From Rhodocyclales bacterium (GTDB lineage Bacteria; Pseudomonadota; Gammaproteobacteria; Burkholderiales; Rhodocyclaceae): a stretch of DNA of 64,000 bases. The translations under genes were made by a program, and so were the position numbers. The stretch covers positions 310,001-374,000 of the forward strand of contig JACRPA010000003.1 in the NCBI GenBank assembly GCA_016214145.1. Direction: 5' to 3'. The notes under the pieces were generated by a model, which saw nothing but the letters and a program-made list of their open reading frames with translations, had not been told where the DNA came from and searched no databases. Shown here piece by piece: positions 3,813-62,679 of the stretch. The number at the start of each line of letters is the position of its first letter. Position 1 is the first letter of the stretch.

Positions 3813-3813
3813 T

Positions 3814-3940: not shown

Positions 3941-3950
3941 CCTGCGGCAG

Positions 3951-4541: not shown

Positions 4542-4544
4542 CAA

Positions 4545-5724: not shown

Positions 5725-5726
5725 AG

Positions 5727-5843: not shown

Positions 5844-5845
5844 CC

Positions 5846-6598: not shown

Positions 6599-6622
6599 GG
6601 AACAGCAAACATCGTGCTCACC

Positions 6623-6694: not shown

Positions 6695-6730
6695 CCGTCG
6701 CAAGCGGCGGGCCGTGTTGTTTGCGCCCGC
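6680..6730 (+). promoter_or_regulatory. Candidate trp attenuator stem-loops
   Basis: CGCTTGC (6680-6686, overlapping the last trpL codons) pairs with GCAAGCG (6700-6706), and GCGGGC (6707-6712) pairs with GCCCGC (6725-6730). This resembles the 1:2 and 3:4 stems of an attenuator. There is no clear T-run after the second stem, so termination may be Rho-dependent or the structure may act on translation instead. Confidence 0.4.
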
Positions 6731-6757
6731 GTATCTCAAGTTTCAAGTAGTGGAGTC

Positions 6758-8709: not shown

Positions 8710-8715
8710 CCCCCC

Positions 8716-9291
8716 ATGCTCCTGATGATCGACAACTACGACTCCTTCACTTACAACCTGGTGCAGTATTTCGGCGAGCTGGGCGAGGAGGTGCGCGTTT
8801 TCCGCAACGACGAGATCACGGTCGACGCCATCGCCGCGTTGAAGCCGGATCGCCTCGTCGTCTCTCCCGGCCCGTGCTCGCCCGCCGAGGCCGGCATCTC
8901 GGTGGCGGCGATCCAGGCCTTTGCCGGAAAAATTCCGCTGCTCGGCGTCTGCCTCGGCCACCAGAGCATCGGCGCGGCTTTCGGCGGCAGGATCGTGCAC
9001 GCCCGCCAGCTCATGCACGGCAAGACCTCGCCCGTGCATCATCTCGACAAGGGCGTCTTCCGCGGCCTGCCCGACCCCTTCACCGCCACGCGCTACCATT
9101 CCCTCGCCATCGAGCGCGACTCGCTGCCGGACTGCCTGGAAGTGACGGCATGGACGGAAGACGGCGAGATCATGGGCGTGCGTCACCGCGAATTCGCCGC
9201 GCATTGTTGTGTAGAGGGCGTGCAGTTCCACCCCGAATCCATCCGCACCGAACACGGCCATCGTTTACTGAAAAACTTTCTTGAACCATGA
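8716..9291 (+). CDS. trpG: Anthranilate synthase glutamine amidotransferase component II
   Basis: Class I glutamine amidotransferase (191 residues) that feeds ammonia to TrpE. It has the oxyanion region [11 protein letters not shown], the nucleophile Cys in [11 protein letters not shown] and the His-Glu pair in [13 protein letters not shown] 8716 lies 8 bp after AAAGAGG, and that ribosome site is the end of the E2 right arm. In many proteobacteria this subunit is shared with p-aminobenzoate synthase, so it may also serve folate synthesis. Hairpin E3 follows the stop. Confidence 0.98.
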
Positions 9292-9294
9292 AAT

Positions 9295-9413
9295 CCAACC
9301 TCTTTCAACGCAAAGGGCGCAAAGACGCAAAGGACGCAAAGAGAACCGAAATGAAACGCCTTGTTTTCTTTGCGCTCTTTGCGTCTTTGCGTTCTCTGCG
9401 TTGAAGGCGGTTT
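9295..9413. repeat. Hairpin element E3 between trpG and trpD
   Basis: The left arm begins CAACCTCTTTCAACGCAAAG with GCAAAGAC units; the right arm ends TTTGCGTTCTCTGCGTTGAA followed by GGCGGTTT. The loop holds ATG 9351, which opens a 17-codon frame ending at TGA 9402-9404, about 29 bp before the trpD start. Confidence 0.92.
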
Positions 9414-9432
9414 GCCTTTAGGAGTTGTAATC

Positions 9433-10458
9433 ATGATCACCCCCCAGGAAGCCCTGCAGCGCACCATCGAGCACCGCGAGATTTTCCACGACGAGATGCT
9501 GCACCTCATGCGGCAGATCATGGGCGGCGGGATCACGCCGCTGATGGTCGCCGCCATCCTCACCGGCCTGCGCGTGAAGAAGGAGACCATCGGCGAGATC
9601 TCCGCCGCCGCCAGGGTGATGCGCGAGCTGTGCACCCGCGTCGACACGCCCCACAACCCGCATTTCGTCGATGTCGTCGGCACCGGCGGCGACTCGGCCC
9701 ACACCTTCAACATTTCCACCGCCTCCGCCTTCGTCGCCGCCGCGGCCGGCGCCACGGTGGCCAAGCACGGCAACCGCAGCGTCTCCTCGAAATCCGGCTC
9801 GGCCGACGTGCTGGAAGCCCTCGGCGCCCGGATCGACCTGACGGCGCCGCAGGTGGCCGAGTGCATCCAGGCCACCGGCATGGGCTTCATGTTCGCGCCC
9901 AACCACCACCCGGCAATGAAGAACGTCGCGCCGGTGCGGCGCGAGATGGGCGTGCGCACGATTTTCAACATCCTCGGCCCCCTCACCAACCCGGCCGGCG
10001 CGCCCAACACCCTGATGGGCGTCTTCCATCCCGATCTCGTCGGCATCCAGGTGCGCGTCATGCGCGAACTGGGCGCCAACCACGTCATGGTGGTGTGGGG
10101 CAAGGACGGCATGGACGAGATCTCGCTCGGCGCGGCGACCCTGGTCGGCGAACTGAGGAACGGCGAGATCGTCGAGTACGAGATACATCCGGAGGACTAC
10201 GGCCTGCAGATGGTGTCCAACCGCGGCTTGCGCGTCGCCGACGCCGCCGAATCGAAGGCCATGCTGCTGGAGGCGCTCGCCAACACCCCCGGCACCCCGC
10301 GCGAGATCGTCACGCTGAACGCCGGCGCCGCGCTGTACACGGCGAACCTCGCCGGCTCGGTCGCCGACGGCATCAGTCGCGCGCGCGAGGCCATCGCCAG
10401 CGGCGCGGCGCGCGCCAAGCTCGAAGAATTCGTGAGCTTCACGCGCCGCTTTGGATAA
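9433..10458 (+). CDS. trpD: Anthranilate phosphoribosyltransferase
   Basis: Transfers phosphoribosyl from PRPP to anthranilate. The 341-residue protein has the helical N-terminal domain ([16 protein letters not shown]) and the PRPP-binding motifs [20 protein letters not shown] and [22 protein letters not shown], plus [23 protein letters not shown] 9433 follows TTAGGAG at 9418-9424. It is flanked on both sides by hairpin elements of the same family (E3 and E4), yet all genes run the same way, so one transcript is likely. Confidence 0.98.
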
Positions 10459-50288: not shown

Positions 50289-50540
50289 ATGCGTACCACT
50301 CTGGATATCGACGATGAGGTGTTGATGGCGGCGAAGGAACTGGCGCGCCGTGAAAGCAAGACGGCCGGCCAGGTCATTTCCGAGCTGGCCAGGCGAGCGA
50401 TGACGCAGCACGTCCAGGCGGACGGTGCGCAATCGGTGCGCGAGCCGGAGGCCTTCTATGGCTTTCGCCCCTTCGCCTCGCGGGGCGCGGTGGTAAGCAA
50501 CGAACAGATCGATCGCCTGCGCGACGACGAGGGCATCTGA
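50289..50540 (+). CDS. vapB: Type II antitoxin, VapB/CopG-like
   Basis: An 83-residue antitoxin. The N-terminal MRTTLDIDDEVLMAAKELARRESKTAGQVISELARRAM is a ribbon-helix-helix pattern for DNA binding. The C-terminal half (EAFYGFRPFASRGAVVSNEQIDRLRDDEGI) would wrap the toxin. ATG 50289 follows TTTGGAGG. It overlaps vapC by one base. It probably represses its own operon. Confidence 0.88.
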   Translation: MRTTLDIDDEVLMAAKELARRESKTAGQVISELARRAMTQHVQADGAQSVREPEAFYGFRPFASRGAVVSNEQIDRLRDDEGI

Positions 50541-50968
50541 TGCGGGCCTTGCTCGACGTGAATGTGCTGATCGCGCTGCTCGACCAGGGCCATCTGCACC
50601 ACGCCGCCGCGCGCGACTGGCTGTCGCGCAACATCAAGCACGGATGGGCCTCCTGCCCGCTGACGCAGAATGGCTGCATCCGCATCCTTTCCCAGCCGGC
50701 CTATCCCGGCGCGCTGCCACCGGCGGCGGTGGCAGCACGGTTGACTGCCGCCACGACAACCGACTGGCACGACTTCTGGCCGGACTCGCTCAGTCTGCTC
50801 GATGGCGGCAGCGTGAACTGGAACGGCGTGCTCGGTTCGCGTCAGGTGACGGATATCTACCTGCTTGCGCTGGCCGTGAATCGGCGCGGGCGACTGGTCA
50901 CCTTCGATCGTGCGATCCCGCTGCAGGCTGTGCCCGGCGCCAAGGCAAAACACCTCGTCGTTATCTGA
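50540..50968 (+). CDS. vapC: VapC-family PIN-domain toxin
   Basis: A 142-residue PIN ribonuclease. The first acidic residue is D6 in LLDVNVLIALLD, others are in TDIYLLALAV and VTFDRAIP. It matches TA-system PIN toxins that cleave tRNA or rRNA. It is coupled with vapB through TGATG. The stop TGA falls in the right copy of the 35-bp repeat, so the pair exactly fills the segment between the repeats. Confidence 0.9.
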   Translation: MRALLDVNVLIALLDQGHLHHAAARDWLSRNIKHGWASCPLTQNGCIRILSQPAYPGALPPAAVAARLTAATTTDWHDFWPDSLSLLDGGSVNWNGVLGSRQVTDIYLLALAVNRRGRLVTFDRAIPLQAVPGAKAKHLVVI

Positions 50969-51009: not shown

Positions 51010-51834
51010 CTAGATGCGAGCGACGGCCGGACTGACCGCGGCTTCCTGGCGGTGCCGTCCGGCCACGGCGGCCAGGACGGCAAGCGCAAGCATTTTTGGA
51101 CGTTCCGCGATGCCGAACGATCTTGCCGGATCGCCGCGCGGGTCGATCTCCACCACCTTGGTGCCGGCCTTGACCGAAGCCCCGGCATGGGTGATGCCGC
51201 GCAGGCAACCGTCGAGCGGCGCCCGGATGACGGCAGTGCCTATGCAGGCCACCGTCTCCCCGCGACTGACTTTTGCGCCAATGACGCAGCCGGTCTCGAA
51301 ACGGCCGTCGGCCGGCGCATAGACGTAGCGCTCGCGGCCGTGGCCGTCGATCGGCCGCGGCTCGCCCGATAGCGGCAGCGAGGATCCGGCCTCGATGATC
51401 CTGCCCAGCGCTTCCCAGGCCGTTTCCACGACGAGATCGGTGGTTTCACCGGCGACGAAATTGGGTCCGAGGCCGATGGTCAGCGGCGCCAGGCCGGCCT
51501 GCCTTTCGGGCACCGATCGCTTGTTCATGCGCGCATCGATCAGAACCTGCGGCCGGAGATAGTCGATGAGCTTCATGAAACCCAGCGCCGCGAGGGGCAC
51601 CTCCCTGCGCTGCTCCAGCATCCGGCGGATCGAGAAGACATCTGCCGTCCGCCTGCCGGTAACGCCATCCAGGGTCGCGCTTTCGTCGAACATGGCGTTG
51701 GTGAAGGCCATGCCGCGTCGGGCGAAGCTCGGCTCCGCGACGTCGTGGATCAGCACCGCATGTCCCGCTGAGAAAAGCGCATGGGCCACGGCGGAACCGA
51801 TGTCGCCACAGCCGCGAACGAGACAGAGCGTCAT
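51010..51834 (-). CDS. YqeB/XdhC-like (selenium-dependent Mo hydroxylase system) protein
   Basis: A 274-residue protein of the EF2563/YqeB family. It starts with a Rossmann-like strand (LCLVRGCGDIGSAVAHALFSAGHAVLIHDVAEP), and has VLIDARMNKRSVPERQAGLAPLTIGLGPNFVAGETTDLVVET and a C-terminal biotinyl/barrel-sandwich-like domain (IGAKVSRGETVACIGTAVIRAPLDGCLRGITHAGASVKAGTKVVEIDPRG). The family accompanies molybdenum hydroxylases and is thought to help insert Se or S into the cofactor. It is the last gene of the molybdoenzyme operon. Confidence 0.85.
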   Translation of the reverse strand: MTLCLVRGCGDIGSAVAHALFSAGHAVLIHDVAEPSFARRGMAFTNAMFDESATLDGVTGRRTADVFSIRRMLEQRREVPLAALGFMKLIDYLRPQVLIDARMNKRSVPERQAGLAPLTIGLGPNFVAGETTDLVVETAWEALGRIIEAGSSLPLSGEPRPIDGHGRERYVYAPADGRFETGCVIGAKVSRGETVACIGTAVIRAPLDGCLRGITHAGASVKAGTKVVEIDPRGDPARSFGIAERPKMLALAVLAAVAGRHRQEAAVSPAVARI

Positions 51835-51837
51835 CTT

Positions 51838-52227
51838 TTAGCCGTTCGACACGATTTGCCGGTGATGCTCGGCGACCGAGTCGAGCGCCTGCTCCAGCGG
51901 CATGCCGGCTTCGACGCGATCCATGATCAGCCGCTGCAGGATGGCGCCGAGCATCTCGCCGTTCGGCCGCATCGGCTCGGCCATCTCGCGCAGGAACTCG
52001 CAGGTCGGCGGATCGTAGGCGAGGCTGGCCAGCATCGACTCCACCGTTTTGTTGGTGGCGAGGACGTGGCAGAGGTCATAGAGAAGGTCGGCCGTCTGCG
52101 CCGCCTGCTCGGGCGAAGCCGGGCCGAGATTGCCGCGCACCTCCGCGGCGAGATCGCGGCGGAAATCCTCCAGCGCGTAGCCGACTTCTCCCTTGACGAC
52201 CTGCTCGGGCGTGAATTCCCATTCCAT
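51838..52227 (-). CDS. Conserved helical protein of the molybdoenzyme operon
   Basis: A 129-residue, mostly alpha-helical soluble protein (VVKGEVGYALEDFRRDLAAEVRGNLG, AAQTADLLYDLCHVLATNKTVESMLASLAYDPPTCEFLREM). It has no signal peptide, TM helix or metal motif. I do not recognise the family. It lies 3 bp behind the ferredoxin gene and 3 bp before the YqeB-like gene, so it is in the same transcript. A chaperone or adaptor role is possible. Confidence 0.78.
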   Translation of the reverse strand: MEWEFTPEQVVKGEVGYALEDFRRDLAAEVRGNLGPASPEQAAQTADLLYDLCHVLATNKTVESMLASLAYDPPTCEFLREMAEPMRPNGEMLGAILQRLIMDRVEAGMPLEQALDSVAEHHRQIVSNG

Positions 52228-52229
52228 GG

Positions 52230-53348
52230 TCAGTTCCCAAATATTGCCGTGAAGGCATCCGCGTCATCGGTGCACACCGGGCAGGTTTCGCACGATTCGG
52301 ACGAGACGAAGAAACGGTCGCAGCGATTGCAGCGCTGCTTGGCAAGCTGGCGCAGGACGGCCGGTTCGCGTTCGGGCGTGGCGTCGAACGATTCCGCGGC
52401 GTACAGCACGCGCGGCTGGCAGACTTCCAGGCAGACGCCGCAGCCGACGCAGCGGTCGATGGCGAAAGCCAGGTTCCAGCTGTCGCTTTCCTCGCGGATC
52501 TGCAGGGCGCCGGTGGGGCAGACGCGGAAGCAGGCCTCGCAGGCGGTGCAGCCCTGCCGCAGGCGGATATCCATCAGCGGCAGGGCCGCCTGCGGCGCGA
52601 TGCGGAACGCTTCGCCCCTTCGACTTTGCTCAGGACAGGCGTCCTTGCGCTTGCAGACGATGGCGAGCAGTTCGCGCATCTCCGGCACGAACCAGGCGCC
52701 GGCGCGGATGGCCTTTTCCTCCACCGGCAGTTCGGCGGCCGGCGCTGCCGCGCGCGCCACCTCGTCGACGCCGCGTCCGATCAGGCGGCGGAACAGCTGG
52801 CGGCGGCCGGCGCGGAAATCGGCTCCGGCACCGCTCCCGCCGGGCGCTTCCGCCAGCACGGCGGCCCGCCATTCCTCCGGGGCGGCCTCGGCTTCCAGCG
52901 TGTCGGCGGCTTCCATCCGGGCGGCGAGCTGCGCCTCCCCTTTCGCGCCGTGGGCGCACTGCGCGCAGTGCCGGCTGCCATGCAGTTCCACCGCGATGCG
53001 CCGCTTGGCGAGATAGGCCAGCATGGCGGCATCCAGCGCGCCGAGGCAGGGCACGATCGCATCGGCGGCCAGACCCGAGGGCGCGCAGGCGAAGCTGAAG
53101 CGCTCCGTCTTGATGGCGCGGCGGAGCAGGTCGAGGCGCGGCAGGTTGTCCGCCCCCAGCGCGGCGGTCGGACAGGCCGCGGTGCACAGCGCGCAGTTCT
53201 GGCAGCGCGCCGCATCGAGGCGGATGCCCTCGTCGAGGAGCTCCACCGCTTCATGCGGGCAGGCCTCGGCGCAGCGCCGGCAGGCGCTGTAGCGGTAGCG
53301 GTAGCGGACACAGCGCTCGGCATGGAACCCGGGGGCGGAGAGTGTCAT
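52230..53348 (-). CDS. Multi-cluster 4Fe-4S ferredoxin with zinc-ribbon-like tail
   Basis: A 372-residue iron-sulfur protein. Four CxxCxxC-type motifs are seen: YSACRRCAEACPHEA, RCQNCALCTAACPTAA, QGCTACEACFRVCPTGA and DRCVGCGVCLEVCQPRV. A central domain (75-225) has HCAQCAHG, and the C-terminus has QRCNRCDRFFVSSESCETCPVC, which looks like a zinc ribbon or a fifth cluster. Residues about 236-245 (DACPEQSRRGEA) are a translated widespread short repeat. It overlaps the rhodanese-like gene. No signal peptide, so it is cytoplasmic. It may deliver electrons for cofactor assembly or for quinol-side maturation. Confidence 0.88.
   Translation of the reverse strand: MTLSAPGFHAERCVRYRYRYSACRRCAEACPHEAVELLDEGIRLDAARCQNCALCTAACPTAALGADNLPRLDLLRRAIKTERFSFACAPSGLAADAIVPCLGALDAAMLAYLAKRRIAVELHGSRHCAQCAHGAKGEAQLAARMEAADTLEAEAAPEEWRAAVLAEAPGGSGAGADFRAGRRQLFRRLIGRGVDEVARAAAPAAELPVEEKAIRAGAWFVPEMRELLAIVCKRKDACPEQSRRGEAFRIAPQAALPLMDIRLRQGCTACEACFRVCPTGALQIREESDSWNLAFAIDRCVGCGVCLEVCQPRVLYAAESFDATPEREPAVLRQLAKQRCNRCDRFFVSSESCETCPVCTDDADAFTAIFGN
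52614..52643. repeat. CPEQSRR-type short repeat in the ferredoxin gene
   Basis: CCCTTCGACTTTGCTCAGGA followed by CAGGCG is the repeat known from many genomes that is read as CPEQSRR. Here it is read in frame on the minus strand. Confidence 0.8.
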
Positions 53349-53779
53349 TTGATCCGCAGTTCCTGCAGCGGCGTGCCCTGCTCGCAGGTATTCTTCGGGA
53401 TGACGAAACTCTTCGGCCGGGTCTTGAACAGGCTGGAGACCGAGGCGGCATTCCAGGTGGTGATGCCGCCCTTGACCGCGTAGACCTCCTGCGCCTTGCT
53501 GCCGGCCGCGAGAAGTTCGCCCACCTCGAGGGCGCGCGCATCGGTGTCGGCGATGACGACGACGACGCCGGTCGGGTTGATCTTCAAATCCTTGCGGTAG
53601 GCGAGCGTGTCGGCGAGCGGCGCGCGCTTGCGTGCGGCAGCGGGGCGCGCGTCGATGACGCAGCAGGGCGTGTCGCCGGCGAGGAAAGCCTTCAGCGCCG
53701 CCGTGTCACGGAGACTGACTTCCGCGGCGGCGGGCGCCGCGATCCACATCGCGGCGATCACCGCGTAAAAAGCCCTCAC
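53345..53779 (-). CDS. Exported rhodanese-like protein lacking the catalytic Cys
   Basis: A 144-residue protein with a signal peptide (MRAFYAVIAAMWIAAPAAA). The rhodanese fold is suggested by CCVIDARPAAARKRAPL and by EVYAVKGGITTWNAA at the end. Where the sulfur-carrying Cys should stand (after the VVVVI strand) the sequence reads ADTDARALEVGELL, so no thiosulfate sulfurtransferase activity is expected. Other Cys residues (DTPCCVID and KNTCEQG) may serve a different purpose. The gene overlaps both neighbours. Confidence 0.78.
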   Translation of the reverse strand: MRAFYAVIAAMWIAAPAAAEVSLRDTAALKAFLAGDTPCCVIDARPAAARKRAPLADTLAYRKDLKINPTGVVVVIADTDARALEVGELLAAGSKAQEVYAVKGGITTWNAASVSSLFKTRPKSFVIPKNTCEQGTPLQELRIK

Positions 53780-54414
53780 CCGATGCCCTCGTTCGATTTT
53801 CCGGTTTCCGGCGCGCTGCGCAGCGCCTTCAGGTAGGGACTATTCTGGTAGATTGCATCGGGCACCGCAAGCCGGGATGCCCGGCCGAGGCCGACCCAGG
53901 CTTCCAGGTCCGGATTCGCTTCATTCAGGGGCGCCAGCCAGAGGCGGTCGCCCCAGCGTTCGGTCAGGCCGGCCAGGATGTTGAGGTCGGCGTCGTCCTC
54001 GATATCCACCCGTATCAGGGCGCCCGACGCACCCAGCCCGAACATTTCGCCGATCCACCACGCCGCATGGGTGCCGCTGCCCGAGCCGTCCGCCCTGAGG
54101 ATTTCCCAGCACGGCTCGCACACCGAGGGCGTCATGACGCGGAAGTCGGCGTTGGAATCGATGTCCATGCTCCAGCTCGCCTGCATGCGCCGGGCCGGCA
54201 CGTAGACGCCGATGCGCCCGCTGCCGTATTCGGCGACGAGCTTTTCGACCAGCGCGCCGTCGAGCAGGGCGTCCTCGCCGATGAAGACGTGCTGGGCGCC
54301 GGCATCCAGGATCGCGCGGATGCCGGCCTCGCCGCCTTCCGGCGGCAGCATTCCGCTCAGGCGACGTACCGCGACGGGAGTTGCCAGTGCGGCGGGCTCG
54401 ACGGGTGCGTTCAT
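53776..54414 (-). CDS. Conserved protein with HisA/HisF-like barrel features
   Basis: A 212-residue cytoplasmic protein. The N-terminal third (GGEAGIRAILDAGAQHVFIGEDALLDGALVEKLVAEYGSGRIGVYVPARRM) resembles strand-helix units of HisA/HisF-type phosphate-binding TIM barrels. The second half (ALIRVDIEDDADLNILAGLTERWGDRLWLAPLNEANPDLEAWVGLG) has similar alternation. The usual catalytic Asp pair cannot be placed with confidence. ATG 54414 overlaps the upstream stop (ATGA). I cannot name the function; the fold assignment is tentative. Confidence 0.72.
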   Translation of the reverse strand: MNAPVEPAALATPVAVRRLSGMLPPEGGEAGIRAILDAGAQHVFIGEDALLDGALVEKLVAEYGSGRIGVYVPARRMQASWSMDIDSNADFRVMTPSVCEPCWEILRADGSGSGTHAAWWIGEMFGLGASGALIRVDIEDDADLNILAGLTERWGDRLWLAPLNEANPDLEAWVGLGRASRLAVPDAIYQNSPYLKALRSAPETGKSNEGIG

Positions 54415-54857
54415 CGCGAATACTCGAACTTGTTGTACACGAAAGGCCACAGCGGGCATTCCGCGTCGGGCGCCAGGCCGGCCAGCAGCGGGCGCAGTTC
54501 TTCCAGCGTGGCGATGATCGGATCGACCCGCACGCCGAGGAAGCCGGGGCGGAAGCGGTTGAGGGACATCAGTGCGTCGTCGATCATCATGACGGCGCCT
54601 TCCTGGTTGGCGTGCTGGGTGAAATACAGGGCCAGCACGGCGAAGGCCAGCGCCTGCAGGAACTGCGCCTCGGGGTCCATCTGACCGGCGACGCTGTTGC
54701 GGATCAGCCGCGACCAGCGTTCGTTGATCCAGTCATGGGCGGCGGCCAGGTCGTTGCTGTCCCACAGGCGGGCCAGTTCCTCCCACAGGAAGTGGGCGCG
54801 CGACGGCGCTTCCGGCGGCGCGAAAACACGGGGTGCAAGGTCAAGAAGGGAAGTCAT
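54411..54857 (-). CDS. Conserved hypothetical protein of the molybdoenzyme operon
   Basis: A 148-residue, largely helical protein with many Trp and Phe residues (FLWEELARLWDSNDLAAAHDWINERWSRLI, FLQALAFAVLALYFTQHANQEGAVMMIDDALMSLNRFRPGFLG). No signal peptide or metal motif. ATG 54857 follows GGAGACGATTCA. A GTAGGTCGG repeat separates it from torD. The helical layout could suit an assembly factor, but this is a guess. Confidence 0.75.
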   Translation of the reverse strand: MTSLLDLAPRVFAPPEAPSRAHFLWEELARLWDSNDLAAAHDWINERWSRLIRNSVAGQMDPEAQFLQALAFAVLALYFTQHANQEGAVMMIDDALMSLNRFRPGFLGVRVDPIIATLEELRPLLAGLAPDAECPLWPFVYNKFEYSR

Positions 54858-54883
54858 TGAATCGTCTCCATGTAGGTCGGGCC

Positions 54884-54940
54884 GTAGGTCGGGCTTCAGC
54901 CCGACAACTGCGCTTGTGTCGGGCTGAAGCCCGACCTACG
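54884..54940. repeat. GTAGGTCGG palindromic repeat at the torD 3' end
   Basis: Arms 54884-54905 and 54918-54939. The right arm read on the minus strand provides the torD TAG stop (54936-54938). A partial extra copy GTAGGTCGGGC lies at 54872. Confidence 0.93.
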
Positions 54941-55721
54941 CCGACCCCGGGCAGGCGCCGCACACCGGCTCGTCCGGATTGAATTCGACCTTGATTTCGC
55001 TCTTCGGCACCACCGGCTTGCCCTTGTCCTGGTCGTCGATGCGCAGCCGCAGGGCGGCGATTTCCGACTCGGCGAATTCACCCAGCAGCTTGGCCATCTC
55101 GCGGTAGAAGGAATGCTCGGCGGCGCGCTCGATCAGCCGCGCATAGCCGCGCACCCATTTGCCCAGATGCACCGTCCAGAAGCGCTTCAGTTCGCGTTCC
55201 TGCCGCGTGTATTCGGCCGGGTCGCCGGCGGCCAGCGCGGCGGCGCAGCGATCGAGCAGTTCGGCGATGAAGGTCAGCTCGACGCCGAGCTGGTCCTCGA
55301 AAACGAAGAAGCGCCCTTTCTGCAGCGCGAAGCCGGCGCGCCTGTAGGTTTCCTTCACCGCGAAGTGCGGCTCCTGCTGGTAGCGCCCGGTCAGGCGCAC
55401 GGATTCCACCGGCGGGAAGCCGCCGGAGGCGGCGAACAGCGTCGTGTACTCGACTGACAAGTCGTAGGCCAGCTTGCCGGGGTTTTCCAGGAGGAAATCC
55501 TCGCCAAAGCAAAGCCCGGCTTCTTCAAGGCTGCGCAGCGCTTCGGGCGCGCGCAGGGCGGCGAGGAATTCAATTGAAGGTTCCTCGACAAAGACGCCGG
55601 CCAGCAGGCGGCAGATGCCGGCGCGGGCCTGGCAGTCCTCCTGCGTCGCCTCTTCACGCGTCGCCACGGGAATGGGCAAGGGCGCGCGCGCGGCCGGTTC
55701 CAGCGCCATATCGTTCAGCAT
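54936..55721 (-). CDS. TorD/DmsD-family molybdoenzyme chaperone
   Basis: A 261-residue all-helical chaperone that binds the Tat signal and apo-form of the catalytic subunit. It has CRLLAGVFVEEPSIEFLAAL, LSVEYTTLFAASGGFPPVESVRL, and the late ERELKRFWTVHLGKWVRGYARLIERAAEHSFYREMAKLL. The C-terminus ends PVCGACPGSA with two Cys. ATG 55721 follows AAAGGATACGA. A T-run terminator-like hairpin lies between it and the catalytic gene. Confidence 0.9.
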   Translation of the reverse strand: MLNDMALEPAARAPLPIPVATREEATQEDCQARAGICRLLAGVFVEEPSIEFLAALRAPEALRSLEEAGLCFGEDFLLENPGKLAYDLSVEYTTLFAASGGFPPVESVRLTGRYQQEPHFAVKETYRRAGFALQKGRFFVFEDQLGVELTFIAELLDRCAAALAAGDPAEYTRQERELKRFWTVHLGKWVRGYARLIERAAEHSFYREMAKLLGEFAESEIAALRLRIDDQDKGKPVVPKSEIKVEFNPDEPVCGACPGSA

Positions 55722-55733
55722 TCGTATCCTTTC

Positions 55734-55773
55734 AGAAAAAAACCGGTCCGCCGGAGGGGTCGAGGCGGACCGG
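55734..55773 (-). terminator. Internal terminator between catalytic subunit and torD
   Basis: On the minus strand CCGGTCCGCC pairs with GGCGGACCGG around an 11-base loop, followed by seven Ts. It probably lowers expression of torD and the accessory genes relative to the enzyme subunits. Confidence 0.8.
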
Positions 55774-55794
55774 CAACTCTCGTTGCTCTGCTCG

Positions 55795-58431
55795 TCAGTG
55801 CCCGCCGCCACCCGCCTTGTGCTTGACGCTCTCGGGGCCGCCCCAGGCGGCCATCTCCGGATGCATCTTGCGGTGCAGGTCGCCGGTGTAGGCGTAGCGC
55901 ATCGTCTCCTTGTAGGCCTCGACGTGCTTCTCCCAGGAACCCTCGATGTCGCCGTACTTGTCGTTCGGGCCGGCCTTGGTCACCTTCGCCACCGTGTCGT
56001 ACCAGCCCTGCGAACCGCCGATCGGGTCGGCCACCACCGGGATGATGTCGTTCGGGTGCACGCCGCGGTCGTCCCACCAGACGTTCTGCAGGTCCGCATC
56101 CTCCGTGCCGCCGAAAGCCGGCTTGTCCTTCAGCTTCAGCGTCGCCAGGCGGCCGTACTCCCAGTGGCCGAAGGCGGTCGGAATCGAGATCACCTTGGGA
56201 TGGATGCCCTCGGTCACGTAGGCCTTGGTCACCATGTGGCCGACGCGGGTCTCGATGCGCACCAGGTCGCCGGTCTTCACGCCGAGCTTCCTGGCGGTCA
56301 CCGGGTTCATCCAGGCCGGATTGCTGTGGGCGATCTCGGCCAGCCACTTCACCGCCGCCGTGCGCGACTGCTTGTGCACATTGAGCTTGAAGGTGGAGAG
56401 GATCATCTCGTCCTCCTTCATGGTCTCGTGCCAGGGAATGCGCTTGAAGGTCGGCATCGGGTTGAAGCCGTACTCGGCCCACTGCTCGACGCGGATGTTG
56501 ATGAGGCGGTTGCCGGTCGGGAAGCCGACGTAGTTCCTGCCGTTGCGCTTCACGCCGATGGTCTTGCCGTTCTTGGCGATGGCGCCGTCCTTGCCTGCTA
56601 CCGCCCCGGCCATGTCGGCTTCCGACAGCTCCTTTTTGTGCAATCCGTAATCGGCCTTGATCTCGCGGCCGGTCTTGTCGGTGACCTTGCCGCTCTTCGG
56701 GTCGAGCTTGCCGTAGATCGGCCAGCAGCCGTGCTCCTTGAGGAACTTCAGGCCGCCCGCTTCCTTCAGGCCGGGAATGCCGTCGAAGTGCTGCTTCATG
56801 TAGTCTTCGCCGTCCTTGAAGTTCCAGAACTGCTTCATGCCGCGCTTGCCGTCCGGATCCAGCTTGTGGATGAGGTCGCGCAGCAGGATGCGGTTTTCGC
56901 GCGACTCGCCGAGGGAGGCATGCACCGGCTGGCGCACGCCGAGCCACGGCCACAGCGAGTTGGGCATCGACTCCGGCTCCCAGCGCTCGAGATACGGGCA
57001 GTCGGGCAGGATGAGGTCGGCCAGCGCCGCTTCCTCGCCCATGTGCGAGGTCATGGCGACGTAGTAGGGGATCAGCTTCTCGTCCTTGAACAGCTTGCCC
57101 CATACCACCCGCGCGCCGGGATTGGTGTAGACCGGGTTGTCCTGGTAGGTGAAGTAGACATTGATCTTCTGCTTGCCTTCGGCGATCCAGAACGGCACCA
57201 GGTGGCTCACCTTGTGGGCGGCCAGCGGATAGTCGGGCGGAGTCGACAGGTACGAGCCATGCTTCGGGCCCGGCGGCTGCGGGTTCGGCTGCGGCCAGCC
57301 CATGCCGCGCGGCAGGCAGTAACCACCCTTCTTCTCGATATTGCCGGTCATGATCGGCAGCATCATGCACGAGCGCTCGTTGTAGGAACCGTACAGGTGC
57401 TTGGCCGGGCCGCGGTAGGTGAACAGCGTCGCCGGCTTGGTGGTGGCGAATTCCCGCGCGACGCGCTCGATGGTTTCCGCCGGCACACCGGAGATCTTCG
57501 AGGCCCATTCCGGCGTGAACTGCTTGTAGTGGTCCTTGAGCTCCTTCACCGTGACGTTGGTCCAGGTCTCGATGAACTCCGAGTCCTGCAGGTCCTCGCG
57601 CAGGATGACATGGCCCATCGCCAGCGCGACCGCGCCGTCGGTGCCGGGGAAGACTGGAATCCACTCGTCCGAGAAGCCCGCCGTGTTGGACAGCCGCACG
57701 TCGAAGGTGACGATCTTCGCGTGGTTGTCCACGCGCCCTTCGGTGATGCGCTGGGACAGCGGATTGTGGAAGTAGGCCGCCTCCAGCACGTTGGAACCGA
57801 AGTTGAGCACGTACTTGGCGTTGGCGAAGTCCGGCGTTTCGATGTCCGGCCCCCAGGTCGGTTCCATGCCGATCTTTTTCGACGACTCGCATACCGAGGT
57901 GTGGTTCACCACCGTGGCCGATCCCAGCGTGTTCATGAAGCGGCCCCAGGTGCCGCCTGTGCGATCGCGCCCTTTTTTCACCATGATGGTGTTGGGATCT
58001 TCCTTGAGCGCCGCATCCAGCTTCTGCGCCACCTCCGTCAGCGCCTCATCCCAGGTGATGCGCTTCCACTTGCCTTCGCCGCGGGCGCCGACGCGCTTCA
58101 GCGGGTAGAGGATGCGGTCCGGGTCGTAGCTGTACCACATGCCCGAGTTGCCCTTGGCGCAGAGCCGCCCGCGCGTGGACACATGCTCCGGATTGCCTTC
58201 CAGCTTGACCACCCGCCCGTTCTCGACGTAAGCGATGGCGCCGTCCTGGATGTTGCAGACGTGGCAGGTGATGGGGATGGCCTTGCGCTCGGCCAGCGTC
58301 TCCGGGTTGAAGTCCTTGCCGCCGAGATCCTTTTCCATTGCATTGAGCAGGCGAGGCGCTGCGGCCGCCGCCGCCGTGGTGCCGGCACTGACTTTCAGGA
58401 AGGTGCGACGCGTTACTTTTGGCATTTCCAT
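55795..58431 (-). CDS. DMSO-reductase-family Mo-bisPGD catalytic subunit (Psr/Ttr/Srd/Arx-like)
   Basis: An 878-residue periplasmic oxidoreductase. A Tat signal (TRRTFLKVSAGTT) opens it. The N-terminal iron-sulfur motif reads C56-H-V-C59-N-I-Q-D63 ... C91, so Asp stands where the third Cys is expected. The likely Mo ligand is C181 in VVNHTSVCESSKKIG. Other parts are ITWDEALTEVA, FRGP-like LFTYRGPAKHLYGS, NIEKKGGYCLPRGMGWP and the C-terminal molydopterin-dinucleotide domain (ARKLGVKTGDLVRIETRVG, IPTAFGHWEYG). B-C-A gene order is as in tetrathionate reductase (ttrBCA) and selenate reductase (srdBCA). The substrate cannot be fixed from sequence. Confidence 0.92.
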   Translation of the reverse strand: MEMPKVTRRTFLKVSAGTTAAAAAAPRLLNAMEKDLGGKDFNPETLAERKAIPITCHVCNIQDGAIAYVENGRVVKLEGNPEHVSTRGRLCAKGNSGMWYSYDPDRILYPLKRVGARGEGKWKRITWDEALTEVAQKLDAALKEDPNTIMVKKGRDRTGGTWGRFMNTLGSATVVNHTSVCESSKKIGMEPTWGPDIETPDFANAKYVLNFGSNVLEAAYFHNPLSQRITEGRVDNHAKIVTFDVRLSNTAGFSDEWIPVFPGTDGAVALAMGHVILREDLQDSEFIETWTNVTVKELKDHYKQFTPEWASKISGVPAETIERVAREFATTKPATLFTYRGPAKHLYGSYNERSCMMLPIMTGNIEKKGGYCLPRGMGWPQPNPQPPGPKHGSYLSTPPDYPLAAHKVSHLVPFWIAEGKQKINVYFTYQDNPVYTNPGARVVWGKLFKDEKLIPYYVAMTSHMGEEAALADLILPDCPYLERWEPESMPNSLWPWLGVRQPVHASLGESRENRILLRDLIHKLDPDGKRGMKQFWNFKDGEDYMKQHFDGIPGLKEAGGLKFLKEHGCWPIYGKLDPKSGKVTDKTGREIKADYGLHKKELSEADMAGAVAGKDGAIAKNGKTIGVKRNGRNYVGFPTGNRLINIRVEQWAEYGFNPMPTFKRIPWHETMKEDEMILSTFKLNVHKQSRTAAVKWLAEIAHSNPAWMNPVTARKLGVKTGDLVRIETRVGHMVTKAYVTEGIHPKVISIPTAFGHWEYGRLATLKLKDKPAFGGTEDADLQNVWWDDRGVHPNDIIPVVADPIGGSQGWYDTVAKVTKAGPNDKYGDIEGSWEKHVEAYKETMRYAYTGDLHRKMHPEMAAWGGPESVKHKAGGGGH

Positions 58432-58446
58432 GTTTTTGTCTCCTCG

Positions 58447-59310
58447 TCAGTACAGTGTCTGCAGTTGTTGCGGGCCCATCAGCAGGGCGTAGCGCAAGGC
58501 GGCGCTGCCGAGCAGGATGAGCAGGGCGGCAATCATCAGTCCGGTAGTCTGCTGCTTCAGGTGGGCGAGGAACAGCATGGCCACCGGTGCGGCCGTTCCC
58601 GCCAGAATTCCGACCCCGACGAAGATCATGCCCATCGTTCCGGTGGTCAGGATCATGAAGGTCAGTTCCTGCGCCGAGCCGCCATAGTTGGTGGTGCCGA
58701 GGATCGAAACCAGGATCACGCCGACGCCGGCCGTCGACCACAGCATGTATTCACGCAGCACCTTCTGCGCCTCGGCATTGCCGCCGGACAGGAGCGAGCC
58801 GACAGCCGAGCCGGAAGCGATGGCCAAGGCAACGAACAGCACCGGCATCACCGGCGTGTTCCAGACCGGCCGCGACTGGTGCACCGTGAGGTCGTAGCCG
58901 GTGTAGATCGGCAGGCCCAGCGCCAGCAGGGCGGTGACGAGCGCCAGCAGCTTGCCGCGCGCGCTGTCCTGCCCCTTCCTCAATTCGAGGATGTAGAGCA
59001 CCGACGCGACACCGAAGGCGACGATATTGAGCGCGCCCCAGGCCAGCGGCGAGGTGAAGCTCAGGTACATCGGGTTGAGGGTGTTGAGGAAGCGCAGCGG
59101 CTGCGACAGGTCGGCGATCAGCAGCAGGCCGCCGATGGCCAGCAGGGCCAGGGAGAGGTAGGCCGCCTTCTCGCGCAGCGGGCGCAGCGCCGGCGTGATC
59201 CAGGAACCGTAGGACAAAAAGGACAGTCCGGCGAGGATGCCGATGACAAAGAAATAGATGGCGTAGCTTGCGTGCCACGACACATCGTGAAACCAGACGT
59301 AATCACCCAT
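58447..59310 (-). CDS. NrfD/PsrC-type quinol-linked membrane subunit
   Basis: A 287-residue membrane protein with eight or nine TM helices (YAIYFFVIGILAGLSFLSYG, LSLALLAIGGLLLIADL, FMILTTGTMGMIFVGVGILAG, GLMIAALLILLGSAALRYALL). The segment DLSQPLRFLNTLNP-MYLSFTSPLAWGALN matches the quinone-site region of NrfD-type subunits. It carries electrons between the quinone pool and the iron-sulfur subunit. It is 10 bp from the FeS gene and 15 bp from the catalytic gene. Confidence 0.93.
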   Translation of the reverse strand: MGDYVWFHDVSWHASYAIYFFVIGILAGLSFLSYGSWITPALRPLREKAAYLSLALLAIGGLLLIADLSQPLRFLNTLNPMYLSFTSPLAWGALNIVAFGVASVLYILELRKGQDSARGKLLALVTALLALGLPIYTGYDLTVHQSRPVWNTPVMPVLFVALAIASGSAVGSLLSGGNAEAQKVLREYMLWSTAGVGVILVSILGTTNYGGSAQELTFMILTTGTMGMIFVGVGILAGTAAPVAMLFLAHLKQQTTGLMIAALLILLGSAALRYALLMGPQQLQTLY

Positions 59311-59320
59311 GATTCATCCC

Positions 59321-60031
59321 CTAGATTTTGAAGTGGCGGTTGAAGGCGGAACGTTCGGGTTCCATCACCTCGGGCTGGCGGTAGGCGTCGCGGCCGAACT
59401 CGGTGGCGTTGCGATCGGCGCCGATGTAGAAGACGTGCGGCTTGGTGCCTTCCTCGGGGCGCAGCACCTGGGTCGCGTTCTTCGCCACCAGGTACGACAC
59501 CTCGCTCGTCGGATCGTTGAGGTCGCCGAAGACGCGCGAGCGGCCGATGCAGGTCTGCACGCAGGCGGGCACCAGGTTCTGCGTCACGCGATGGAAGCAG
59601 AAGGTGCATTTGTCCACCACGCGGGTGATCGACGAGTAGGTGCGGTGCGCCGGCAGCATGAAGCGCGCGTTGTAGGGACAGGCCGCCATGCAGCTGCGGC
59701 AGCCGATGCAGCGCTCGTACCGCTGCAGGACGAAGCCGCCGTCCTCGACCTTGTAGGTGGCATCCACCGGGCAGTTGCGCACGCACGGCGGATCGTCGCA
59801 GTGGTTGCACAGGCGCGGCAGGAACTGTTTCTTGACGGTGGGATAGGTGCCGACCACCTTGTAGGGCACCCAGGTGCGATTGACGCCGAGCGGCGTGTCG
59901 TACTCGGCCTTGCAGGCGACCTGGCAGGCCATGCAGCCGATGCAGCGGCGCGTGTCGACCACCATGGCGTAGCGCTTCTTGCCGGCCACGCCACGCGTCT
60001 CAATTGGCGAAACCCTCAGTTCTTCACTCAT
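59321..60031 (-). CDS. Four-cluster iron-sulfur electron-transfer subunit (PsrB/TtrB-like)
   Basis: A 236-residue protein with the 16 Cys of the DmsB/PsrB family: RCIGCMACQVACKAEY, LCNHCDDPPCVRNCPVDA, RCIGCRSCMAACPYNA and CTFCFHRVTQNLVPACVQTCIG. It has no Tat signal of its own and would be exported together with the catalytic subunit. ATG 60031 follows AAGGAGGAGAAGGTCAC. It is the first gene of the operon, read from a sigma54-type promoter at 60112-60127. Confidence 0.94.
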   Translation of the reverse strand: MSEELRVSPIETRGVAGKKRYAMVVDTRRCIGCMACQVACKAEYDTPLGVNRTWVPYKVVGTYPTVKKQFLPRLCNHCDDPPCVRNCPVDATYKVEDGGFVLQRYERCIGCRSCMAACPYNARFMLPAHRTYSSITRVVDKCTFCFHRVTQNLVPACVQTCIGRSRVFGDLNDPTSEVSYLVAKNATQVLRPEEGTKPHVFYIGADRNATEFGRDAYRQPEVMEPERSAFNRHFKI

Positions 60032-60111: not shown

Positions 60112-60127
60112 AGCAACAACCGTGCCT
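60112..60127 (-). promoter_or_regulatory. Sigma54 (-24/-12) promoter of the molybdoenzyme operon
   Basis: Read on the minus strand: AGGCAC-N5-TTGCT, against the consensus TGGCAC-N5-TTGCT, with exactly 10 bp between GG and GC. The expected transcript starts near 60100, about 70 nt before the first gene. Confidence 0.85.
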
Positions 60128-60182: not shown

Positions 60183-60198
60183 GTTACGATTCAGTAAC
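60183..60198. promoter_or_regulatory. Enhancer-like palindrome UAS1
   Basis: GTTACGATTCAGTAAC: GTTAC and GTAAC arms with a 6-bp spacer, about 76 bp upstream of the -12 element. Confidence 0.7.
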
Positions 60199-60215: not shown

Positions 60216-60231
60216 GTCACCGGTCGGTAAC
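60216..60231. promoter_or_regulatory. Enhancer-like palindrome UAS2
   Basis: GTCACCGGTCGGTAAC, same form as UAS1 (GTYAC-N6-GTAAC). Its centre is 33 bp from that of UAS1, three helical turns. The rest of the 340-bp gap shows no gene. Confidence 0.7.
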
Positions 60232-60371: not shown

Positions 60372-61223
60372 TTGGATCGCAGAACTTTCCTGGCCCTGAC
60401 TGCCGCAATATCGGCGTCGCCGCTGTGCGTCGAAGCGCAGACCAACGCCGCAGTGCGCATCGGCCTGACCCCGGTGTTTCTCGATGACCAGCTCTCCTTC
60501 CTCAGCGACTGGCGCGATTACCTCCAGGGGCGAATCGGGCGCGCCGTGCGCTTCGTGCAGCGCGGCAGCTACCGCGAGATCATGGACCTGCTGCTGGAGC
60601 AGAAACTGGACTTCGCCTGGATTTGCGGCTACCCCTATGTGCGCCACAAGGTGAAGCTGCGCCTGCTGGCGGTTCCCGTTTCCGACGGGCGCCCGCAGTA
60701 TCGTTCGTATCTGATCGTTCCCGCGTCGGATGCGCAGACGGGCTCCGTTCTGGATCTGCGCGGCAAGGTGTTCGCCTATTCGGATCCGGATTCCAACTCC
60801 GGCTTCCTCTACCCGCGCTACGCGCTCATGCAGTTGAAGGAGAACCCGGACCGTTTCTTTTCCAGGACCTTCTTTACCTGGGCGCACCGCAAGGTCGTCG
60901 AGGCCGTCGGATCGAACCTGGCCCAGGGCGGCGCGGTGGACAGCTACGTCTGGGACACGCTGCGCATCTATCATCCGGAACTGACGGGGCGCACGCGCAT
61001 CGTGGAGAAATCGCCCTACTTCGGCCATACGCCGGTGGTGGCGAGGAACGGCGTGTCGCGGACGGAATTCGATGCCATGCAGGAAGCCCTGCTCGGCATG
61101 TCGCAGTCGGCGGCGGGAAAGGAACTGCTCAAGCGCCTCAACCTCGATGGCTTCGTTGCAGGAGAAGAGGCGCTTTTCGACGGCATCGCGCGCATGATGC
61201 GCGCCCTCAACGGCCGATCCTGA
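60372..61223 (+). CDS. PhnD-like periplasmic binding protein of a two-component system (AioX/ArxX/TtrS-like sensor)
   Basis: A 283-residue protein with a short export signal (MDRRTFLALTAAISASPLCVEA) and a PhnD/TtrS-type ligand-binding fold: VRIGLTPVFLDDQLSFLSDWRDYLQGRIG, YREIMDLLLEQKLDFAWICGYPYV, LRGKVFAYSDPDSNSGFLYPRY, VGSNLAQGGAVDSYVWD. C85 in the ligand-cleft strand is the only Cys in the mature domain. TTG 60372 follows AAGGAGGAATTC. It lies 1 bp before the kinase gene. In arsenite (AioXSR) and tetrathionate (TtrS) systems a protein of this fold detects the substrate; which ligand applies here is unknown. Confidence 0.86.
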   Translation: MDRRTFLALTAAISASPLCVEAQTNAAVRIGLTPVFLDDQLSFLSDWRDYLQGRIGRAVRFVQRGSYREIMDLLLEQKLDFAWICGYPYVRHKVKLRLLAVPVSDGRPQYRSYLIVPASDAQTGSVLDLRGKVFAYSDPDSNSGFLYPRYALMQLKENPDRFFSRTFFTWAHRKVVEAVGSNLAQGGAVDSYVWDTLRIYHPELTGRTRIVEKSPYFGHTPVVARNGVSRTEFDAMQEALLGMSQSAAGKELLKRLNLDGFVAGEEALFDGIARMMRALNGRS

Positions 61224-61224
61224 A

Positions 61225-62679
61225 ATGTTCCGCCTGCACGACCTCAGCTTCCGCTACAAGATACCGCTGCGCGGCAGCGTGCTGGTGCTGATCACGGCGC
61301 TGCTGGTGACCGCCTCGCTCATTTTCCGCGAGTACGACGAACTGCGGCAGGACCTGGCGACCACCTCGGCGCACCTGGGCCGGGTGCTGGCCAATACGCT
61401 GGTGTCGCCGCTCACGCACGACGATCCCTGGCGCGCCTACGAGATCATCAACTCTCCCTTTCACGGCGGCCCGCCGGAAGCCAGCCCGCAGACGGCGGCG
61501 CTGGTCATGGTGCTCGACGCCAACCAGCGCGTTTTCGTCGCGACGGATCCCAACCAGTACCCGATGCTGTCCGATCCCTCGCGCGCCAATACCGATTTCT
61601 ATGAACTGTGGCAGGCGGTGGCAAAGTTCAACGAGCCGGACACGCGCGCCGTCGAGGTCAAGGGATCCAAGGCCATCTACATGGTCACGCCGATCATCTC
61701 CGACGGCTTTCGGCTCGGCACGCTGATCATGGGCTATTCCAAGGACGCCTTCCTGCCCCGCTTTTTCGGCATCGCCAAGCGGGCCGGCCTGATCACCGTG
61801 GCGGTGCTGGTGCTGCTGCTGCCGGCCAGCTGGTACTGGGGGCAGCGCTTCGCCAGACCGCTGGTCGATCTTTCGCAAAGCATGGGGAAAATCGGTGTGG
61901 AAATTCCCGCCGAAGGGGATATCCGGTTGTACGAATCGAAGGACGAAATCGGCCAGCTCGGCGCCGCCTTCAAGAACATGCTGCAGGGCCTGCGCGAGAA
62001 ACAGGCGCTGGAACGCGAGGTGATGCTGTCCGAACGCCTCGCGGCGGTGGGCCGGCTGGCGGCCGGCGTCGCGCACGAAATCAACAATCCCCTCGGCGGC
62101 ATGCTCAACGCCATCAGCACCTATCGCCGCCACGGCAACGACGATCCGCTGGCGGCGCGCACCCTGTCGCTGGTCGAGCGCGGCCTCGTGCAGATCAAGG
62201 ATACGGTTTCGGCATTGCTGGTCGAGTCGAAGGTGCAGAGCCACCAGCTGACGCGGCAGGACATCGAGGACACGCACACCCTGGTGCAGACCGACGCCAA
62301 TCGCAAACAGGTGCGCTTCGACTGGCGCAACGGCATCGACGAGACCCTGCCGCTGCCGTCCACCCTGGTGCGGCAGATCCTGATCAACCTCATGCTGAAT
62401 GCCATCCGCGCGGCGCCCCGCGAGGGCACGGTCGCCTGCCGGGTGGAATGCGATGGACGGGCCCTGCTCGTGCAGGTCGGCAACAACGGCGACTACATTC
62501 CGCAGGAGCGCATGGAGCACTTGTTCGAGCCCTTCTCCAGCCAGAGCGAGGACGGCCACGGGCTCGGCCTCTGGGTGACCTACCAGATCGTGCACCAGCT
62601 CGGCGGCGAGATCGCCGCCGAGAGCGTGCCCGAGGAGACGCGCTTTACCGTCACGTTGCCCCTGGCCGAGGCTGTATGA
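61225..62679 (+). CDS. Sensor histidine kinase (AioS/NtrB-like)
   Basis: A 484-residue kinase with TM helices at about 14-34 and 186-205 enclosing a periplasmic domain of 150 residues, a HAMP-like linker, the HisKA box AAGVAHEINNPLGGMLNAIS (phospho-acceptor H284) and an HATPase with NLMLNAIRAAP, VGNNGDYIP and GHGLGLWVTYQIV. The kinase type is the one that pairs with sigma54-dependent regulators. It is between the PhnD-like gene and the regulator. Hairpin E8 follows. Confidence 0.93.
   Translation: MFRLHDLSFRYKIPLRGSVLVLITALLVTASLIFREYDELRQDLATTSAHLGRVLANTLVSPLTHDDPWRAYEIINSPFHGGPPEASPQTAALVMVLDANQRVFVATDPNQYPMLSDPSRANTDFYELWQAVAKFNEPDTRAVEVKGSKAIYMVTPIISDGFRLGTLIMGYSKDAFLPRFFGIAKRAGLITVAVLVLLLPASWYWGQRFARPLVDLSQSMGKIGVEIPAEGDIRLYESKDEIGQLGAAFKNMLQGLREKQALEREVMLSERLAAVGRLAAGVAHEINNPLGGMLNAISTYRRHGNDDPLAARTLSLVERGLVQIKDTVSALLVESKVQSHQLTRQDIEDTHTLVQTDANRKQVRFDWRNGIDETLPLPSTLVRQILINLMLNAIRAAPREGTVACRVECDGRALLVQVGNNGDYIPQERMEHLFEPFSSQSEDGHGLGLWVTYQIVHQLGGEIAAESVPEETRFTVTLPLAEAV

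Follow-up and report, generated by a model that had tools for sequence, protein, structure and literature searches.

The DNA examined here (the window) is a stretch of 64,000 nucleotides from a Rhodocyclales bacterium (GenBank assembly GCA_016214145.1, contig JACRPA010000003.1, positions 310,001 to 374,000), which carries on its minus strand, between positions 51010 and 60031, an operon for a molybdoenzyme of the MopB type, with three regulatory genes, X, S and R, diverging from it on the plus strand. We propose with moderate confidence that this operon encodes an arsenite-induced, quinone-linked periplasmic oxidoreductase for arsenic oxyanions that belongs to a new MopB lineage, probably an arsenite oxidase; among arsenic-respiring molybdenum enzymes it would seem to represent a third type. 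Oxidation of arsenite is favoured because the sensor is of the arsenite type, the ferredoxin is of the ArxB2 type and the operon is linked to arx. What is new is an arsenic-regulated variant of respiratory molybdoenzyme with new accessory families; searches of open-licence PMC papers retrieved no description of it, as expected from an earlier note, made from the sequence alone, that had singled out the operon as the best candidate for an undescribed system in the window.

Gene content and conservation of the operon

The operon begins with B (59321..60031), a 4Fe-4S electron-transfer subunit resembling TtrB, DsrO and ArrB, in the N-terminus of which no Tat motif was seen, and continues with C (58447..59310), an NrfD/PsrC-type membrane quinone subunit, A (55795..58431), the molybdopterin catalytic subunit, predicted to be Tat-exported, and D (54936..55721, the start being taken at ATG 55721), a TorD-like chaperone, all four assigned with Pfam and NCBIfam models. 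The accessory genes follow in the order H148 (54411..54857), TIM (53776..54411, 211 residues from ATG 54411), a rhodanese-like gene (53345..53779), FDX, also termed FDX372 (52230..53348), H129 (51838..52227) and a YqeB-like gene (51010..51834). The position and order of these ten genes, all on the minus strand, agree with the earlier note. From B to YqeB the junction gaps are 10, 15, 73, 78, -1, -4, -4, 2 and 3 bp, so that five of the nine junctions are at most 3 bp apart or overlap by at most 4 bp, in agreement with the tight spacing that had been pointed out.

A contig scan with alignment of A gave 78 loci, consisting of 61 core loci (A at least 69% identical) and 17 distant loci (A below 62%), the latter used solely for comparison of tree, motifs, neighbourhood and accessory hidden Markov models (HMMs). 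Together with four further loci the core loci make the set of 65 related loci, three duplicates being removed (L020 = L074, L023 = L056, L026 = L071) and L022, a contig fragment without A, being dropped. The unit B-C-A-D-H148-TIM-rhodanese-FDX-H129 is nearly invariant in this set. Counted on core loci with enough flank, B was found in 59 of 59, C in 60 of 60, D in 55 of 55, H148 in 53 of 53, TIM in 52 of 52, FDX in 50 of 50 and H129 in 44 of 47, while the rhodanese-like gene was detected by tblastn in 49 of 52 and the remaining three were recovered by HMM (52/52). Five of the six accessory genes, YqeB being excepted, thus co-occur with the enzyme across the 65 loci, and a gene order that recurs in dozens of genomes is beyond chance; of the ten-gene operon described before, nine genes stand as a conserved unit and YqeB is a local addition. 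The system is widespread and real.

In a first survey of 300 genomes of the order, TIM matches were obtained in 9, including the genome of the window; the eight strong matches are all located in this operon (that of G170 on a contig fragment carrying only D to FDX), and G216 gave a weak hit (E 4e-4) that is probably HisF background. Profiles of H148, TIM, the rhodanese-like protein and H129 gave no match in the 17 distant loci, and genes of the D and FDX types extend into these loci, beyond the range of the other four. Host names include Sulfuricella, Thiobacillus, Sulfuritalea, Gallionella, Aromatoleum, Thauera, Hydrogenophaga, Herbaspirillum and Azoarcus sp. KH32C, the last five being represented by named strains. 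Hosts already in culture include Thauera aminoaromatica S2, Aromatoleum toluclasticum and Azoarcus sp. KH32C. The annotation of plasmid pAZKH in Azoarcus sp. KH32C labels four of the nine operon genes hypothetical. The closest relative of A in the contig scan (93%) was L027, on a contig labelled Phycisphaerae, and since its whole operon is 65-94% identical to that of the window despite this label, the contig is probably misbinned.

Arsenic-type regulation and arsenic neighbourhood

The earlier note had ended the operon at B, leaving out the divergent genes that begin at 60372 on the plus strand and belong with it: X (60372..61223), a periplasmic sensor of the AioX/ArxX type, S (61225..62679), a sensor histidine kinase, and R, an NtrC-type (sigma-54) response regulator that runs from 62843, the start of the tblastn match rather than a chosen start codon, to 64000 and continues past the window end. 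R is 58% identical over 444 residues to an annotated sigma-54-dependent regulator of Azoarcus sp. KH32C. Beside the operon X was found in 52 of 55 and S in 43 of 45 core loci with enough flank. X is PhnD-like and matches AioX in the PDB with 210 bits, compared with 140 bits for ArrX. All seven AioX pocket residues listed in PMC5908839 (Tyr88, Cys106, Tyr131, Ser161, Ser163, His192 and Asp210 in AioX numbers) are present in X, and these are kept in 55 of 55 X orthologues, save that one has a gap at Cys106 and one has Thr in place of Ser163. At AioX positions 56 and 57 the core X has Val-Phe and the arx X rows have Ala-Phe; X carries ICGYP besides the V56/F57 loop, whereas the ArrX fragment has a gap at the loop and ICTYS. 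In the X tree (36 rows, built on a selection of sequences) X is placed with AioX and ArxX (support 100/99), away from ArrX. AioX and ArxX bind arsenite and ArrX binds arsenate, each sensor binding the substrate of its enzyme, as described in PMC5908839. X is predicted from its residues to bind arsenite; in the proposed scheme, periplasmic arsenite would bind X, and X would then trigger kinase S.

A diverged form of X (39-44%) accompanies the operon in L030, L032, L033, L037, L043, L046, L047, L048, L052, L054, L080 and L082, the hosts of which include Rhodoferax, Hydrogenophaga, Polaromonas and others, and S there, where sequence is available, stands at 28-30%. This form makes its own group in the X tree, shows Val-Ile at positions 56 and 57 in six of six rows, and carries all seven pocket residues in 11 of 11 sequences long enough to align; an operator within one mismatch was found in 12 of 12 of these operons.

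Upstream of B, 12-point scoring of upstream regions gave a sigma-54 promoter-like site, AGGCACGGTTGTTGCT (60112..60127, minus strand). Such a site scored at least 9 of 12 in 58 of 61 upstream regions, against 62 of 1220 simple shuffles used as the control. Further upstream lies GTTAC-N6-GTAAC, a putative R-binding palindrome, present as GTTACTGAATCGTAAC (60183..60198, exact match) and as a second putative operator with one mismatch, GTTACCGACCGGTGAC (60216..60231), both on the minus strand. This palindrome, we presume, resembles the AioR-binding sites. The exact form GTTNC-N6-GNAAC was found in 37 of 61 upstream regions (0.7% of shuffles), a form within one mismatch in 53 (13% of shuffles), and two sites within one mismatch in 36 (0.6% of shuffles). 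Phosphorylated R would bind these operators and open the sigma-54 promoter before B. Two palindromes and a -24/-12 promoter likewise precede the aioBA operons that have aioXSR (PMC3834237), so that X-S-R control, sigma-54 promoter and paired palindromes are common to both systems; the enzymes differ, since A reaches only 44 of the 359 bits needed with the AioA model TIGR02693, and the operon genes include no AioB Rieske subunit.

Paired operators also precede the three arx operons that were inspected, those of the own genome, G020 and G324, and exact operators precede a third MopB operon. Of the six exact operators in the own genome, this operon has one and arx three, of which one falls within arxB2; the other two, on another contig, accompany a further molybdoenzyme driven by X-S-R. 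All six exact operators of G020 are located at this operon, arx and the third MopB operon. As side observations, this third operon (ThirdA/B, with GHGKY and HRTTTCEAARH; L105:8093-11372, L112:8515-11669 and L113:9213-12367) is present in the same arsenic island of G020 and has a relative in G150; in two Sulfuritalea drafts it directly adjoins its own AioX-type X-S-R with matching operators. On the other contig of the own genome, L117, an AioX-type X-S-R (R-S-X, 309-4070) and two exact operators drive a TtrA-like molybdoenzyme (MopB 4470-7478; TtrA model 376 bits of 1750 needed), followed by B (7489-8109), an ArxB2-like ferredoxin (8119-9312) and a possible TorD-like gene (9266-9997); with this module the own genome has three X-S-R-molybdoenzyme modules.

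Just past the window end (window coordinates about 65200-79000; L111:5186-19000), the own genome carries arxD-C-B-A-B2, another X-S-R and arsR-arsC-ACR3, ACR3 being cut by the end of the sequence examined; the operon thus forms the border of an arsenic island. ArxA (E <= 1e-150) was detected in 11 of 49 operon genomes, in 7 of them within 15 kb of the operon against 0.10 expected. ACR3 was above cut-off in 43 of the 48 operon genomes covered by that search (the ArxA, AioA, YqeB and SelD searches covered 49), within 30 kb of the operon in 19 of the 43 (expected 0.79), within 15 kb in 9 (0.39) and within 10 kb in 2 (0.26); all these expectations assume uniform placement and independent genomes, so that the P values are overstated. 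The possibility that the ars linkage is a mere by-product of arx linkage was rejected because only 3 of the 19 genomes with ACR3 within 30 kb (G020, G150 and G324) have ArxA. On plasmid pAZKH of Azoarcus sp. KH32C, arsC-arsD-arsA-ACR3 lies one hypothetical gene away from R-S-X. On a single contig of Herbaspirillum sp. ST 5-3, a region of about 55 kb contains the operon together with arx, ars genes and a full AioA match. A full AioA match (1288 bits) was obtained for G324 only. In G000, G335, G340 and G343 the AioA-like matches were weak, at about 400 to 440 bits; these exceed the cut-off of 359 but were by our judgement not counted as AioA, G324 being the sole scorer at 1288 bits.

Lineage and likely substrate of subunit A

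Molybdopterin oxidoreductase domains were recognised in A with both Pfam and NCBIfam. The Tat signal model falls just below its cut-off (21.5 of 22.7 bits), and the RR.F Tat motif is present in 61 of 64 A sequences, the other three being N-terminally cut. The Mo-ligand Cys is within the motif NHTSVCESSKK, and GR[NDQ]R[TS]GG was found in 62 of 64, the other two (L084 and L088) being again N-terminally cut; A thus has GR[ND]R at the place where ArxA has GRGW (GRGWG in the ArxA of L105 and L106) and ArrA has RGRY. The first Fe-S motif of A is CX2CX3DX27C, with Asp for the third Cys in 62 of 62 readable sequences, while the usual motif is given as CX2CX3CX27C in PMC4643136.

In the A tree (43 rows, with 15 core loci and the window sampled from the 64 loci that have A), the core A rows, 16 in number, make up one clade with support of 100/100, nested in a wider clade of 34 rows (95/97) that is apart from ArxA/ArrA and from PsrA/PhsA, and ArxA groups with ArrA (100/99). 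The PhsA, PsrA, ArrA, DmsA and RHA1 rows are on long branches, the ArrA and PsrA rows being PDB fragments, and AioA, TtrA, SrdA and SoeA rows are absent, so that the tree does not fix the sister group of the new clade. By the sequences compared, A is a separate MopB clade, set apart from ArxA/ArrA and PsrA/PhsA only. Genes resembling ArsD and ArsM, with a distant match to ACR3 (31%), come after a distant A relative in a Nitrospiraceae draft (L100:12500-18000), and on this ground the wider clade may be arsenic-linked too.

The operon shares many features with Arx (arxB2ABCD with divergent arxXSR): the divergent X-S-R with an AioX-type sensor, the same paired operator, a MopB subunit predicted to be Tat-exported and Cys-ligated, a 4Fe-4S B, a membrane C, a TorD-like D, an ArxB2-type ferredoxin and, in 7 genomes, the same region within 15 kb. 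It differs from Arx in gene order (B2-A-B-C-D for arx, B-C-A-D-...-FDX here), in the Asp of the first Fe-S motif, in four extra accessory families, and in that A falls outside the ArxA/ArrA clade and lacks the XGRGWG motif that PMC6549141 places near the active site of ArxA. With Arr it has in common the ArrA-like His, Lys, GR and GHWxYGR positions and the presence of TorD-like and Fe-S accessory genes (PMC11283718), but A lacks the [RK]GRY motif given for ArrA and belongs to a separate clade, and X is not ArrX-like. Because of the tree and the motifs, plain filing of the operon as Arx or Arr was rejected.

FDX is a polyferredoxin, as the earlier note had recognised, supported by Pfam and NCBIfam multi-cluster ferredoxin models and by 24 invariant Cys, of which 23 are shared with the ArxB2 of L105; judged by this Cys alignment, it is a homologue of ArxB2. 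PMC6549141 describes such a ferredoxin as arx-specific. In the scheme that we favour, A, with molybdopterin on its Cys ligand, B as a 4Fe-4S wire and C as the quinone subunit would assemble into a complex facing the periplasm, in which electrons pass between the quinone pool and an arsenic oxyanion; the arsenic activity of A-B-C is thus a proposal from gene context and motifs, and its physiological direction is judged to be arsenite oxidation appreciably more probably than arsenate reduction.

A respiratory arsenate reductase of a new lineage, acting like Arr and induced by the arsenite that it makes, is a possible but rather unlikely alternative. It would agree with the positions of A that align with the ArrA His, the Lys five residues past the Cys ligand and GHWxYGR, and it would leave coexistence with arx, and with aio in G324, free of redundancy. 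The roles of ArrA Arg165, His189 and Lys198, the positions compared with A, are here assumed. It agrees less well with a sensor loop of the AioX/ArxX rather than the ArrX type, with the absence of [RK]GRY, with the position of A outside the ArrA/ArxA clade, and with the arx-specific kind of ferredoxin, although a 4Fe-4S protein, ArrE, is mentioned for arr clusters in PMC11283718.

Several points weigh against the favoured explanation. A lies outside ArxA/ArrA in the tree, and its best curated model is PhsA with 353 bits (cut-off 694), compared with 189 bits for ArrA. The Lys five residues past the Cys ligand is common to A and ArrA, while both ArxA rows have Glu, which leans to arsenate; this ArrA-like Lys, together with coexistence with arx and aio, favours arsenate or another arsenic species, and in the 11 of 49 genomes with ArxA, G324 having full AioA in addition, there would be no need for a third arsenite oxidase. 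According to PMC5908839, the choice of oxyanion is not decided by the pocket residues alone. Of 55 loci with enough flank, three (L058, L062 and L079) showed no X next to the operon, and no operator site within one mismatch was found in 8 of 61 upstream regions. Exact operators number 1, 0 and 3 in G150, G182 and G324, compared with 3, 3 and 13 in the backwards-read control, and the overstated P values of the proximity statistics belong here as well.

The PhsA-leaning score recalls PsrABC/PhsABC, and the best PDB match of A is 2vpw, listed as a thiosulfate reductase, which we take to be Thermus PsrA. Still, A falls well short of the PhsA cut-off, its GR..R and CESSKK motifs are missing from the PhsA and PsrA rows, the regulation of the operon is of the arsenic type, and A is not in the PsrA/PhsA clade, with the long branches mentioned. 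This score and the rhodanese-fold partner leave room for a (mono)thioarsenate oxidoreductase, improbable in our estimate, with a PhsA-like site acting on the As-S bond of thioarsenate, the arsenic counterpart of thiosulfate, and with the product, sulfur or arsenic, being bound by the exported rhodanese-fold protein. The partner was present in 52 of 52 loci with enough flank when the HMM was included, the names of some hosts are those of sulfur- or iron-oxidising bacteria (Sulfuricella, Thiobacillus, Sulfuritalea and Gallionella), and a strain without the known oxidases oxidises arsenite with thioarsenate intermediates suggested (PMC6620896). On the other side, the rhodanese-like protein has no catalytic Cys, and other hosts are Aromatoleum, Thauera and Hydrogenophaga. 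These three are heterotrophic denitrifiers. A fuller version, to which we likewise give little credence, would have the PhsA-like Mo site cleave or make the As-S bond, the C-terminal Cys of the rhodanese-fold protein carry the product, and H148-TIM-FDX-H129 build the Asp-ligated cluster. If true, the operon would be a further arm of one arsenite-triggered regulon beside arx and aio and would supply a missing enzyme of arsenic-sulfur cycling; to our knowledge, thioarsenate chemistry has no assigned enzyme.

Microbial oxidation and reduction of arsenic help to set the amount of arsenic that reaches groundwater and rice, and surveys of arsenic metabolism commonly target aioA, arxA and arrA. Such surveys could miss the present system, because neither ArxA (E <= 1e-150) nor full-strength AioA was found in 38 of 49 operon genomes (37 when the weaker AioA matches over cut-off are counted; ArrA was not searched). 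Thauera aminoaromatica S2 (G318) and Aromatoleum buckelii U120 (G308) are two hosts in which these searches detected neither ArxA nor AioA. The operon also ties four co-inherited accessory families to one molybdoenzyme with a conserved Asp in place of an Fe-S Cys.

Accessory proteins and the YqeB-like gene

Most of the structural claims made for the accessory proteins by the earlier note were borne out. H148, described as helical, is so, with a match to Pfam DUF309 at E 9.7e-4, below cut-off. The possible TIM barrel was matched by its structure model to HisF-type barrels, as a partial (beta/alpha) barrel with TM-scores of about 0.55, a HisF-like profile being below cut-off; the match informs on fold, not on function. 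The helical H129 is modelled as a confident helical bundle, and for it no Pfam or NCBIfam family over cut-off and no Foldseek match against the PDB at E <= 0.001 were obtained. The rhodanese-like protein, recognised by a match below the Pfam/NCBIfam cut-off, is inactive as claimed in that no Cys is present in the active-site loop stretch of 52 of 52 aligned sequences, including that of the window, while the C-terminal Cys (TC motif) is kept in all 52. It is probably exported, a hydrophobic N-terminus being found in 49 of 51 by a crude test, which is loose, as it was positive in 16 of 54 TIM sequences too. Under the favoured reading as an arsenite oxidase, D, H148, TIM, FDX and H129 might serve in the cytoplasm to assemble A with its unusual first Fe-S site, and the exported rhodanese-fold protein might act in the periplasm, perhaps as an arsenic carrier via its invariant Cys.

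The suggestion that the operon makes a cofactor modified with sulfur or selenium was not supported, the sensor, operator and neighbourhood pointing to arsenic. It had leaned on YqeB and on the rhodanese fold; the latter loses its weight as a sulfur-handling clue with the missing catalytic Cys. The YqeB-like protein scores 203 of 220 bits with TIGR03309, below cut-off, and among the 47 related loci having 8 kb or more of flank its gene was beside the operon in one (L028); it was also there in L027, with its shorter flank, and in the window. Because its place beside the operon is restricted to the window and two close relatives, YqeB is not part of the conserved system, unlike what would be expected of Se-dependent Mo enzymes with YqeB. 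YqeB matches were found in 5 of 49 operon genomes, in 3 of them beside the operon; G338 has its match on the contig of the operon at a distance of about 17 kb, and G333 on another contig. SelD over cut-off was found in 41 of 49 operon genomes, the own genome included, and does not discriminate; it was not found in 2 of the 3 genomes with YqeB beside the operon, which are drafts. After these tests of YqeB linkage and SelD presence the cofactor idea was set aside.

A reductase for sulfur or selenium oxyanions (tetrathionate, thiosulfate or selenate) with a cofactor modified with the help of YqeB is, in consequence of the same data, very improbable. B and C score best with TtrB and TtrC, respectively, and the name of the YqeB model refers to Se-dependent molybdenum cofactor biosynthesis, but all three TtrABC models are below cut-off (TtrA 146 of 1750, TtrB 218 of 416 and TtrC 60 of 314 bits), and the rarity of YqeB and the arsenic-type sensor, operator and neighbourhood stand against it. 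A tetrathionate or thiosulfate reductase read from gene order alone was set aside because of the HMM scores and the regulation.

Two minor features were noted in the window. A hairpin-like inverted repeat, consisting of GTCGGGCTTCAGCCCGAC and a near copy, was read by eye between D and H148 (54870-54940), and is perhaps a repeat element or an attenuator. Convergent to the operon end lies a gene with a PIN-domain-like product (50540-50968), which we take to be of the VapC type.

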